This document shows positions 14,375 through 48,190 of a stretch of DNA of 64,000 nucleotides, one piece after another. Position 1 is the stretch's first letter, and every line of letters begins with the position of its first letter. The stretch is from the NCBI RefSeq assembly GCF_024054035.1, contig NZ_JAMXQU010000004.1, positions 124,001 to 188,000 of the forward strand, read 5' to 3'. Under the pieces are notes generated by a model that saw only the letters and a program-made list of their open reading frames with translations, had not been told where the DNA came from and did no database searches. This DNA is from Asaia lannensis NBRC 102526. GTDB taxonomy: Bacteria; Pseudomonadota; Alphaproteobacteria; Acetobacterales; Acetobacteraceae. The translations under genes and the position numbers were made by a program.

Positions 14375-14672
14375 GTGAAGTGGGAGGGCTTCTGTTGCCC
14401 GGTGCCCTCCCGAACCGCGCTTATCGCTTATGCAGCGACAGCGAGCACCTTTGTGTTATCATTGGCACTTGTGATTTAGCCCGATAACGGCGGTACAATG
14501 CCGGGCAAAAGATAAGTCTTTACCACGCACGTCGAGCCTGTTTCGTCCCCTGACTTTCCGTCTGGCAGAGCCTTCGGGAAGGAATGGTGGAGACGCCGGG
14601 CACTGCCCCCGGGTCCGTAACGATTATTCCACTTACCGTTTATCGCCATAGCCAAGGGCGAACCCTCCGGCA
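14375..14672 (-). ncRNA. ssrA: Transfer-messenger RNA, circularly permuted two-piece form
   Basis: On the minus strand the acceptor piece comes first and ends CCA at 14585, with a T-arm CCGGG/CCCGG. After a 34-nt intervening segment the coding piece begins at 14550 with GGGGACGAAACAGGCTCGAC. Its first six bases pair with the GTCTCC before the discriminator base of the acceptor piece (one G-U pair), giving the tRNA-like acceptor stem. The tag reading frame (14466-14428) encodes ANDNTKVLAVAA and then TAA. A closing hairpin GGGAGGGC/GCCCTCCC lies at 14382-14411. The outer ends are estimated. This layout is typical of alphaproteobacteria. Confidence 0.95.
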
Positions 14673-14678
14673 CCGATG

Positions 14679-14707
14679 CATATAGGCCCTCCCGGCGGTC
14701 CCGACAA
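14679..14707 (-). promoter_or_regulatory. Probable ssrA promoter
   Basis: On the minus strand TTGTCG and TATATG are separated by exactly 17 nt, and the -10 box lies about 7 nt before the estimated tmRNA precursor start. Good sigma-70 geometry directly upstream of a stable RNA gene makes this likely. Confidence 0.7.
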
Positions 14708-14914
14708 GAGGCGCATGCAGGTGCAGCGACAGACGCGGCAGGAAACGGGCCAAGAGAAAAAAAGAGGGTGAGAGGACCAGGGCGGAAGAGGCCCGAAAGA
14801 CGTGCGAGCGTCTGGGCAGCAGGAAAGCGCGGAGAAAAAAAGCCGGTCGCGAATCACGATGTGTGACCATACTGACAGTGTTTTGTGCGGCACTCTTGTG
14901 GTAAGGCTCGGCCC

Positions 14915-45429: not shown

Positions 45430-45736
45430 TGGTGTCCGCGGCGGGATTCGAACCCACGGCCCCAGGATTCATACCACTTCGACTTTCGCCGCCGACGCCT
45501 GTGACGTCGTTCGTGGTCTGGACTGTCTCTTCACCATAATCCGGTATCCGGATGACAGGTGCTGCCCGTACAGTCTCTACACCTCCACAGAACTTTCGGC
45601 CCTGTGTTTGGCTCGGGATTGGCACGGTCATCGACCAGAGCGTTCCCCGAATTTGAGCAGATCCACCATAACGTTTCCAATTATGGCGCCCAATTAACTA
45701 GGAATCCTGTGCTCTATCCTGCTGAGCTACGCGGAC
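45430..45736 (-). tRNA. tRNA-Arg(CCU) interrupted by a group I intron
   Basis: Exon 1 (45700-45736) and exon 2 (45430-45469) join to a complete cloverleaf: acceptor stem GTCCGCG/CGCGGAC, D-arm GCTC/GAGC, anticodon stem CAGGA/TCCTG with loop TTCCTAA (anticodon CCT), variable loop GGGCC, T-arm GTGGG TTCGAAT CCCGC, discriminator A and an encoded CCA (45430-45432). The intron lies directly after the anticodon, between positions 36 and 37. tRNA-Arg(CCU) reads AGG codons. It is known as a host of group I introns in some alphaproteobacteria such as Agrobacterium. Confidence 0.96.
45470..45699 (-). ncRNA. Group I self-splicing intron in tRNA-Arg(CCU), 230 nt
   Basis: The 230-nt insert follows a U and ends in G, as group I introns do. 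The conserved core is visible on the minus strand: TCAAATTCGGGGAA (P3/P4 region, 45641-45660), CCGAGCCAAAC (Q, 45606-45616), GGTGTAGAGACTGTACGG (R, about 45559-45584) and AGACAGTCCAGACC (S, 45515-45532). The R and S strands pair as GACTGT/ACAGTC to give P7, the guanosine-binding helix. The exon CCU can pair with GGG at 45689-45691 as a short P1. This is very close to the Azoarcus tRNA-Ile intron (subgroup IC3). No homing endonuclease is encoded. Confidence 0.93.
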
Positions 45737-46078: not shown

Positions 46079-48190
46079 ATGTTCGATCTGGCCCTCCGTG
46101 GTGTTGCAAAAACCGATTCCACCCTGCTGCGTCTGCGACTGATCGGTCGCATGGAAGCCACTACACTGACTGGTGAAAGTGTGTTGCCTGTTGGCGGGAA
46201 GACGAAGGGATTACTTGCGATCCTCGCGTTATCGGATCGCAAACCTGTTGCCCGCTCCCATCTGGCCGAGCTCCTCTGGAGCCGTCGCCCGGACGATCTT
46301 GCGCGCGCGTCCCTTCGGCAGGAGATCCATCGCCTTCTCGATGCGCTCAGTCCGCTCGGTGTGGATGTAATCGATGTGCAGCGACACACGCTCGCGCTGA
46401 AACCAGCCCTGACCTCGGTCGATGTCGAACGTATTCTCAACGGCGGCAAATCCATCCTGCGCGACCTGCCACCGCCGAGCGACGTGCTGCTAGGTGAACT
46501 CAACGGTATCGATCCTGCCTTCAATGAATGGATCGAGGGGCAGCGCACGCGCCTCAACCGTCATATCTACCAGCTTTTCGAGAGTGCGTTGCGCACACAG
46601 GTCGATCCCGACGCCATTCTGGAGACGGCCGATCATCTCCTGGTGCGCGATGCGCTGAATGAAGCCGCATGGCGTGCCCGTATCCAGGCTTGGGTGACCA
46701 AAGGAGAATACGCGCAGGCTGCTACTCTGGGCGATCAGGTTGTACAGCTTTTTCAGGATCAGCTCGGCACCGTGCCTGGTCCGGCCACGATGGGGCTGGT
46801 TCGTGGCTTGCAGGAGCGAATCGCCTTCGATTCCTATGCGAAGACCCATCACGGAGCGTCAGCCGACCTCGATCCGGCTCTCGTTCATGCCGATATTCAT
46901 GTCGAGAACTCGGGCATGTTCGCCGGTGGTGGAGGAGAGGGGTCATTTCTTTCGGCTGGCCCGCCAGCACGTTCGCTCGGCTCGATTGCTGTCGCGCCCC
47001 TCAAATCGACGGGTGGGGCGCATGCCGACATGTTGGCTGCGGAACTGACAGAACGCCTCGAAGTCAAGCTTGTCGGGCTGCAGACCTTTACTGTCGTGCC
47101 GTTCCCTGAAACGCCGCTGGGTGAGACGGGGCCGCTACTCGGCAACACGCATAATCCCGGGACGGATTACGTCATTTCGGGTCTCGTGCGCGTCAATGGC
47201 GATCATGACGAGACTTCGGAAGGTTACGTGATTATCCGCCTCCTCAGTCTGAGGCAGGAGGGAAGCGTCGTCTGGGCAGACCGGTTCGAGTTGCCGAAGG
47301 ATACGCGCGCCCAGCGTGCGCTGCTATTCTATGTGATGAAATCGCTGCAATGGTCGCTCTTCGTGTCCGAAGGGCAGCGCATGATGTCGCGTCCCATCGC
47401 CGAATTGTCCTCTTTCCAGATGGCGATCCGGGCTTTGACGTTGCTGCTGCGTTGCGATGTGACTCTCTCCGGCGAGCTTGAAGAACTGGTCGAGCGGGCC
47501 TATCAGTCCGATCAGGAATCGGTTTTCGTTCTTTACGTGCGGTCGCTCATACGTTTCTTCCTGTATCAGGAAGATCTCGCGTCAACGCCGAGAGAAGACA
47601 TCGAGGAGATTGCTGCGGCTGCGGGCTATGTGGCCATTCAGCTTCGTGCCAATCCGCTGGGTGTGTGGCTTTCCATGCTGACGCGCACCTTCACGCCCGG
47701 CCAGCTCGACGAGGCCAAGGCGCTCACTGCGGAATATACCGGAGCGGGTGGCGTTTTTCCGGCTATTGCGATCTCGCCATCGGTGCATACGCTCAAGGCC
47801 ATTCAGGCATTGTTGAGCGGGCAGAAATCGATAGCGCTTGAGGAAATACAGCAATTCCGTGCCTTGCGTGCCTCGCAACCTCTGGCTGTGCTGTCCGAGC
47901 CATTCAGCATTTTCGTGCTTGAGGCGTCGGGTAATAACGAAGAAGCCAGACAGGCGGGCGCCGCATTCGTCAGCCTCTATCCGAGAAGCGCGGCCGGTGT
48001 GCTCTACTATCTCGTGGCTCTCGCCTCGCATGGTATGGGTGAGGAAACCGAACGCGTGAAACGCCATCTTATGCGTCTCGTGCCGGACGTAACGATTGCC
48101 AGCATTCTCGCGCGGCATGCATTCCTGCCAGAGAAAATGCAGGGCTGGCTGCGCGAAATGCTCGAACGGGTCAGTATCCCCAGAGGATAA
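46079..48190 (+). CDS. SARP/BTAD-type transcriptional regulator
   Basis: The 703-residue protein begins with an OmpR-like winged helix used in SARP activators (LRLIGRMEATTLTG, then KTKGLLAILALSDRKPVARSHLAELLW and RQEIHRLL), followed by a BTAD helical bundle (ADHLLVRDALNEAAWRARIQAW). The middle (about 300-450) contains SIAVAPLKSTGGAHADMLAAELTERLEVKL, similar to the FlgO/TolB-like domain of CadC-type regulators, and the C-terminal 250 residues are TPR-like helices. Targets are unknown. It is not next to a biosynthetic cluster. It lies directly upstream of the essential leuS group but probably with its own promoter. Confidence 0.88.
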   Translation: MFDLALRGVAKTDSTLLRLRLIGRMEATTLTGESVLPVGGKTKGLLAILALSDRKPVARSHLAELLWSRRPDDLARASLRQEIHRLLDALSPLGVDVIDVQRHTLALKPALTSVDVERILNGGKSILRDLPPPSDVLLGELNGIDPAFNEWIEGQRTRLNRHIYQLFESALRTQVDPDAILETADHLLVRDALNEAAWRARIQAWVTKGEYAQAATLGDQVVQLFQDQLGTVPGPATMGLVRGLQERIAFDSYAKTHHGASADLDPALVHADIHVENSGMFAGGGGEGSFLSAGPPARSLGSIAVAPLKSTGGAHADMLAAELTERLEVKLVGLQTFTVVPFPETPLGETGPLLGNTHNPGTDYVISGLVRVNGDHDETSEGYVIIRLLSLRQEGSVVWADRFELPKDTRAQRALLFYVMKSLQWSLFVSEGQRMMSRPIAELSSFQMAIRALTLLLRCDVTLSGELEELVERAYQSDQESVFVLYVRSLIRFFLYQEDLASTPREDIEEIAAAAGYVAIQLRANPLGVWLSMLTRTFTPGQLDEAKALTAEYTGAGGVFPAIAISPSVHTLKAIQALLSGQKSIALEEIQQFRALRASQPLAVLSEPFSIFVLEASGNNEEARQAGAAFVSLYPRSAAGVLYYLVALASHGMGEETERVKRHLMRLVPDVTIASILARHAFLPEKMQGWLREMLERVSIPRG

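Follow-up and report, generated by a model that had tools for sequence, protein, structure and literature searches.

A group I intron in the anticodon loop of the tRNA-Arg(CCU) gene of Asaia lannensis and its relatives in Acetobacteraceae

Introduction

Whether Asaia lannensis NBRC 102526 encodes a tRNA-Arg(CCU) whose anticodon loop is split by a working group I intron, and how such an intron came to be there, are the questions raised by a short locus in the 64,000-nucleotide stretch of DNA analysed here (the window). Introns of this type have a history in the literature, which includes the first such intron (Reinhold-Hurek and Shub 1992, cited in PMC7717549) and their sporadic distribution in alphaproteobacteria (Paquin, Heinfling and Shub 1999, cited in PMC7717549). 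The bacterial hosts named in the parts of the literature consulted are the tRNAs for Leu(UAA), fMet, Ile(CAU) and Arg(CCU). The locus is best explained by considering the gene, the fold of its intron, its visibility to annotation tools, its descent, its splicing and its relatives in other tRNAs.

A split tRNA-Arg(CCU) gene

The minus strand from 45736 to 45430 holds a tRNA-Arg(CCU) gene, complete from the first acceptor-stem base through an encoded CCA and split by an intron (Table 1), and the limits given in the original prediction match it to the base. The insertion point lies between U36 and A37, at the bond joining CCU to AA. The joined exons are called by ARAGORN as a tRNA-Arg(cct) of 77 nt with a clean cloverleaf, made up of the acceptor stem, D arm, 5-bp anticodon stem, loop TTCCTAA and T arm, which bears out the exact exon joining that had been proposed. 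Adjoining the tRNA gene is a 703-aa protein (window 46079-48190, plus strand) with a borderline match to the BTAD activator domain (E 0.00017).

The genome is a draft of 3.22 Mb in 27 contigs, in which 45 tRNA genes were found with RF00005 and given their anticodons by ARAGORN. The arginine tRNAs among them are ACG (two), CCG and UCU. An intact second CCU gene, one half of what the original prediction had named as speaking against it, was sought and is absent from the 45 tRNA genes found in this 27-contig draft; the joined tRNA, used as a query in this genome, has only a split best match. The genome likewise has a single RF00028 match, namely this intron. As the tRNA-Arg(UCU) is present and could read AGG by wobble, the tRNA-Arg(CCU) product need not be essential.

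Table 1. Coordinates of the split gene and of its intron elements in the window
Feature	Position	Strand	Remarks
tRNA-Arg(CCU) gene with intron, acceptor stem to encoded CCA	45430..45736	-	307 nt
5' exon, 37 nt, ends ...GGATTCCT (U36)	45700..45736	-	
Group I intron of 230 nt with a terminal G	45470..45699	-	
3' exon, 40 nt, first bases AATCC, last bases the encoded CCA	45430..45469	-	
Guide GGG, pairs with exon CCU (45700-45702) in P1, U.G pair at splice site	45689..45691	-	paired in 77/77 introns
AUU, could pair with 3' exon AAU (P10)	45692..45694	-	read from the sequence of this copy only
P3, 5' strand (CTGCTC)	45655..45660	-	
P3, 3' strand (GGGCAG)	45562..45567	-	
P7, 5' strand (GACTG)	45571..45575	-	
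P7, 3' strand (CAGTC)	45521..45525	-	

Structure of the intron

The helix names P1 to P10, the omega G and the guide sequence are the usual terms for group I introns. On the window copy, 64 pairs in 14 helices were named by eye, which include P1 (exon CCU with GGG), P2, P3, P4, P5, an extension of P5, P6, P6a, P7, P8, an extension of P8, P9 and two P9 hairpins, and all 64 are standard pairs. P7 is what we take, from the family, to be the guanosine-binding helix. Of the features that mark a group I intron, a P3-P8 core including P7, a terminal G and a U.G pair at the 5' splice site are found. The Rfam group I model RF00028 matches over its entire length at 44.7 bits (E 4.6e-10 in 751 bases), though the score lies under the gathering score of 50, so that a gathering scan misses the intron.

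The fold shows strong covariation over the relatives. The pairing was followed over 77 of the 90 introns fetched from Acetobacteraceae genomes, the 13 excluded being near-copies or longer than 262 nt. Standard pairs occupy 96.0% of 4850 cells (shuffled mean 85.7%), both sides have changed in 40 pairs (26.7 in shuffled data), and the covariation score is 0.335 against 0.143 after shuffling, where 0 of 500 shuffles reach 0.335, and against 0.045-0.081 for slid versions. The covarying helices are P2, P3, P6a, P8 and the P9 arms; P1, P4, P6 and P7 hardly vary, hence covariation says little on those helices either way. P3, P4, P6, P7 and P8 are paired in 99.7-100% of cells, the U-G pair of P1 at the 5' splice site occurs in all 77 introns, and weaker parts are the extensions of P8 (84.5% of cells paired) and P5 (87.9%). 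The intron has helices P1-P9 and a terminal G, and the core structure given in the original prediction holds. The fold energy gives a modest signal against shuffled sequences, with a minimum of -81.7 kcal/mol (z -2.08; 4 of 200 shuffles equally good) for a fold that excludes the P3/P7 pseudoknot.

The short P5 region and the tRNA host fit the description of subgroup IC3, to which the intron may belong; P5(a-d) is absent from IC3 introns (PMC11835236). Two 101-aa ORFs overlap the gene, and neither matches any Pfam family at E 0.1; the predicted lack of a homing endonuclease holds in that none is recognisable, and from the missing Pfam matches endonuclease-driven homing would now be absent.

Visibility to annotation tools

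Standard scans had been expected to miss or mis-call the gene, and with the default settings tried they do. ARAGORN in default mode makes no call on the unspliced 307 nt and reports only a tmRNA and no tRNA in the window, and the Rfam gathering scan of the window reports only two tmRNA models. The window carries, at 14379-14711 of the minus strand, an Alphaproteobacterial permuted tmRNA of known form. Similarly, default ARAGORN calls none of the 90 unspliced genes of the relatives, and with its intron option it makes 90 calls on the same 90, naming Arg(cct) in 6 of the 6 listed. On a longer stretch with introns allowed, ARAGORN named His for one Arg copy (L139) out of three, and hence an intron-allowing scan finds the gene but may misname the tRNA.

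The Rfam gathering score of 50 bits seems too strict for these tRNA introns, as none of 17 genomes (G000 and 16 relatives) reach it with RF00028 and 11 of the 17 match at E <= 0.001. By its authors' account, tRNAscan-SE 2.0 is not meant for finding group I introns in tRNAs (PMC8450103). The host gene of the BbgpI intron of Bartonella bacilliformis, an unannotated tRNA-Arg(CCU) gene, was found by tRNAscan-SE only with the intron removed (PMC7717549).

Distribution and descent in Acetobacteraceae

With the unspliced gene and the joined tRNA as queries, and among the matches listed, 299 Acetobacteraceae genomes divide into 115 that are intron-bearing, 147 with an intact tRNA-Arg(CCU) and 37 unscored either way; none has both, in the sense that no intron-bearing genome had a best match of intact size. 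Five of these assignments carry a qualification: G197 and G287 were scored intact from the best E-value alone, G275 was scored intact on a partial intron match and an intact tRNA, and G093 (match in two pieces) and G048 (match from base 73 only) were scored intron-bearing. The 37 genomes outside both classes include nearly complete ones, and diverged introns may be present there. At the level of genera, 37 of 102 have intron-bearing genomes only, 47 intact genes only, 7 both, and in 11 neither was scored. The predicted patchy spread is plain from these counts.

The gene of the window is 66-88% identical to the listed full-length matches in the family. From the 115 intron-bearing loci, 90 were fetched, and in all 90 the intron lies at the same bond, ends with a terminal G and leaves exons that join in silico to tRNA-Arg(cct); the intron lengths are 213-314 nt. 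Within the genus of the window genome, the intron is present in 7 of 7 genomes, with exons 100% identical and introns identical at 83% on average, and in the flanks of these seven the identity is 67% over 150 nt upstream and 43% downstream. One of the same-genus genomes (G085) carries a copy (L050) that is 87% identical to the window gene.

A tree was built by a quick method without bootstrap from 89 distinct introns of the family, 11 Arg(CCU) introns of named bacteria and 8 Leu(UAA) introns. Its depth is weakly supported, with 52 of 105 inner branches open, and the single change that splits the Arg from the Leu introns has a support of only 39. The introns cluster by genus, with 19 label changes for 16 genera of two or more members, where the least possible is 15, and shuffled labels average 50.1 changes and never fall below 44 (200 shuffles). 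The seven same-genus introns group with that of one neighbouring genus (g9) at SH-aLRT 97. Judged from these sequences, the intron appears to have been inherited with its host in Asaia and close relatives, and over the wider family it has been gained or lost repeatedly.

A competitor to descent within the genus is that a working intron arrived in this lineage recently by horizontal transfer. This agrees with the patchy spread and its seven mixed genera among 102, and also with the locus L099 elsewhere in the family, where one of six genomes of a genus (g69) is intron-bearing and the intron groups among those of Rhodobacter and Rhizobiales (SH-aLRT 85-90), a placement that points to transfer in that case. 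In Asaia, however, the presence in all seven genomes, their grouping with g9 and an upstream flank that is recognisably common to the genus stand against it, and a recent arrival is therefore judged unlikely. Flank comparison within the mixed genera, made as a search for an empty site, gave exons that align and beyond them short pieces only. When L099 is compared with L395 and with L397, 24 nt of the tRNA end are repeated past its 3' terminus in both pairs, and with L395 there is also a shared piece of 49 nt; integration of an element at the tRNA might leave such features.

Splicing

The preferred reading is that the locus carries a working member of the known alphaproteobacterial family of introns in tRNA-Arg(CCU). 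The anatomy and the conservation are observed directly, and that the intron splices is very probable on the strength of its family. In the precursor, the intron GGG would pair with the exon CCU to form P1, a guanosine bound in P7 would cut after U36, and the freed 5' exon would then attack after the terminal G, whereby CCU is joined to AA. By the family's mode, these would be two transesterifications started by guanosine, with U36 as the end of the 5' exon and the terminal G as the 3' boundary. The product would have a normal anticodon loop, and the joined tRNA would read AGG codons. BbgpI splices in vivo and self-splices in vitro (PMC7717549); it is the same kind of intron in the same gene of another species, and guanosine-started self-splicing of the window copy is putative by this homologue.

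A decayed intron, with a fold still recognisable but splicing lost, the gene dead and AGG read by tRNA-Arg(UCU), would look similar at first sight. The loss could be tolerated in the presence of that tRNA, and the RF00028 score is below the cut-off. Such low scores are nevertheless usual for these introns, as seen in the 17 genomes above, and a decayed copy fits poorly with 64 standard pairs out of 64, with exons fully identical over the seven same-genus genomes, with introns there more alike than either flank, and with the use of AGG, the codon for 66 of the 1053 arginines encoded by 32 long non-overlapping ORFs in the window. Decay is thus very improbable, more so than a recent arrival. Chance similarity with no intron at all has a negligible probability, being ruled out by the joined cloverleaf, the RF00028 E-value, the same site in all 90 fetched relatives and the covariation over 77 introns.

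Relatives in other bacteria, tRNAs, plasmids and phage

The Asaia intron is a new member of a described alphaproteobacterial tRNA-Arg(CCU) family, of which a same-genus member is already in print. The latter is a split tRNA-Arg of Asaia bogorensis NBRC 16594, probably of the same genus as the window gene, that stands in a table footnote with no anticodon or structure given there (PMC4596401). The alphaproteobacterial introns of this family occupy the same gene and the same bond as that of the window. The guide ATTGGG is kept in 11 of 11 copies from named genera that were assigned to this site (Agrobacterium, Neorhizobium, Bartonella, Mesorhizobium, Phyllobacterium, Rhodobacter, Methylorubrum, Xanthobacter, Skermanella, Commensalibacter and Gluconobacter), and the divergence from them is mostly in loops and in the P2, P5, P6a, P8 and P9 extensions.

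The original remark that such introns are known from a few alphaproteobacteria understates their number in Acetobacteraceae (115 of 299 genomes). In a thin sample of the whole class, matches spanning most of the gene occur in 5 of 190 genomes, namely that of the window, two more from Acetobacteraceae, and G348 and G305, which belong to other families. This class-wide search was by DNA similarity, by which diverged copies will be missed; in a number of its other genomes the two exons directly adjoin, as they do in an intact gene. Named genomes scanned by pattern gave at least 115 stretches with 116 cores among the matches listed; the host assigned is Arg(CCU) at the same site for 23 of these cores and Leu(UAA) after U34 for 25, and for 53 no tRNA could be assigned. 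The 18 titled sequences among the 23 Arg(CCU) assignments are all from Alphaproteobacteria. The titled copies come from Agrobacterium, Neorhizobium, Mesorhizobium, Phyllobacterium, Bartonella, Methylorubrum, Xanthobacter, Rhodobacter, Skermanella, Gluconobacter, Acetobacter, Commensalibacter, Neokomagataea and others.

The introns of bacterial Leu(UAA) and CAU tRNAs share a related ribozyme core (about 72% identity for plasmid Leu(UAA) copies) but differ in the host tRNA and in the insertion, which is after U34 or after U33. Related introns also occur in further tRNAs that give a clean cloverleaf when joined: Thr(GGU) in three loci (L140, L162, L231), Thr(UGU) in two (L229, L236), Lys(UUU) in four (L141, L153, L203 and Gordonia phage Daredevil), Lys(CUU) in two (L250, L251) and Arg(UCU) in one (L148). 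The anticodon loops of the Thr, Lys and Arg(UCU) hosts all end in UAA. Such hosts were not seen in the limited open-access literature consulted, except for very short cyanobacterial cases (PMC5733544); those tRNA 'group I introns' of 22-49 nt fall short of the length that this ribozyme needs and were left out of the count.

For a host to be assigned, the junction had to follow a U, and both an omega motif and a guide triplet had to be present, which placed 103 of 250 cores; as the script demands the U, a junction that follows a U is built in for hosts other than Arg(CCU). The 147 cores without an assigned host, which may lie in other genes, include 91 viral ones and 23 at most 330 bases from a contig end. 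A looser script placed 128 of the 250, 55 of them with more than one identity, many of these by false joins, and it was dropped. Likewise, ARAGORN calls of Leu(CAA) and Leu(UAG) for L145 and L150 were not upheld by the stricter script, which gave no host for L145 and accepted L150 only with a much longer intron.

Copies are found on mobile elements too. The viral pattern scan gave at least 120 stretches, and 91 of the 123 listed cores have no tRNA host found. In Gordonia phage Daredevil (L078:1879-2190), a related group I intron interrupts a tRNA-Lys(UUU) gene, and the phage annotation has no feature at this place. On plasmid pCTX-M3 (L077:2933-3231), a complete tRNA-Leu(UAA) gene that contains a related group I intron lies near aac(3)-IId and near an ATPase gene, presumably tmrB, that has no match in the other loci compared. 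A search of 72,556 plasmids found this tRNA-Leu(UAA) with its intron on 1257 at >=80% coverage, and 624 of 5426 E. coli genomes have it as well, with no annotation under it in the three E. coli matches listed. Both L244 and a chromosomal tRNA-Leu of a Bradyrhizobiaceae MAG (L164) share 95% identity with it, and the latter is a hint at where the plasmid segment may have originated.

The Asaia intron could be a branch of an endonuclease-less family that has moved repeatedly between the anticodon loops of Arg(CCU), Leu(UAA), CAU, Thr(GGU), Thr(UGU), Lys(UUU), Lys(CUU) and Arg(UCU) tRNAs, a reading for which we see the balance as even. The phage and the many plasmids with copies could be the vehicles of such moves. 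All hosts but Leu end their loop in UAA, and each called junction comes after a U. For such moves, reverse splicing into a short target in the loop would be a better explanation than endonuclease homing.

Conclusion

The annotation of this genome is corrected in that it has a tRNA-Arg(CCU) gene missed by a default tRNA scan and by the Rfam cut-off. By itself the finding alters no general view, the intron being real but ordinary for its family. The set of 115 genomes with and 147 without the intron would make a good system in which to measure how often a ribozyme without its own protein is gained and lost.
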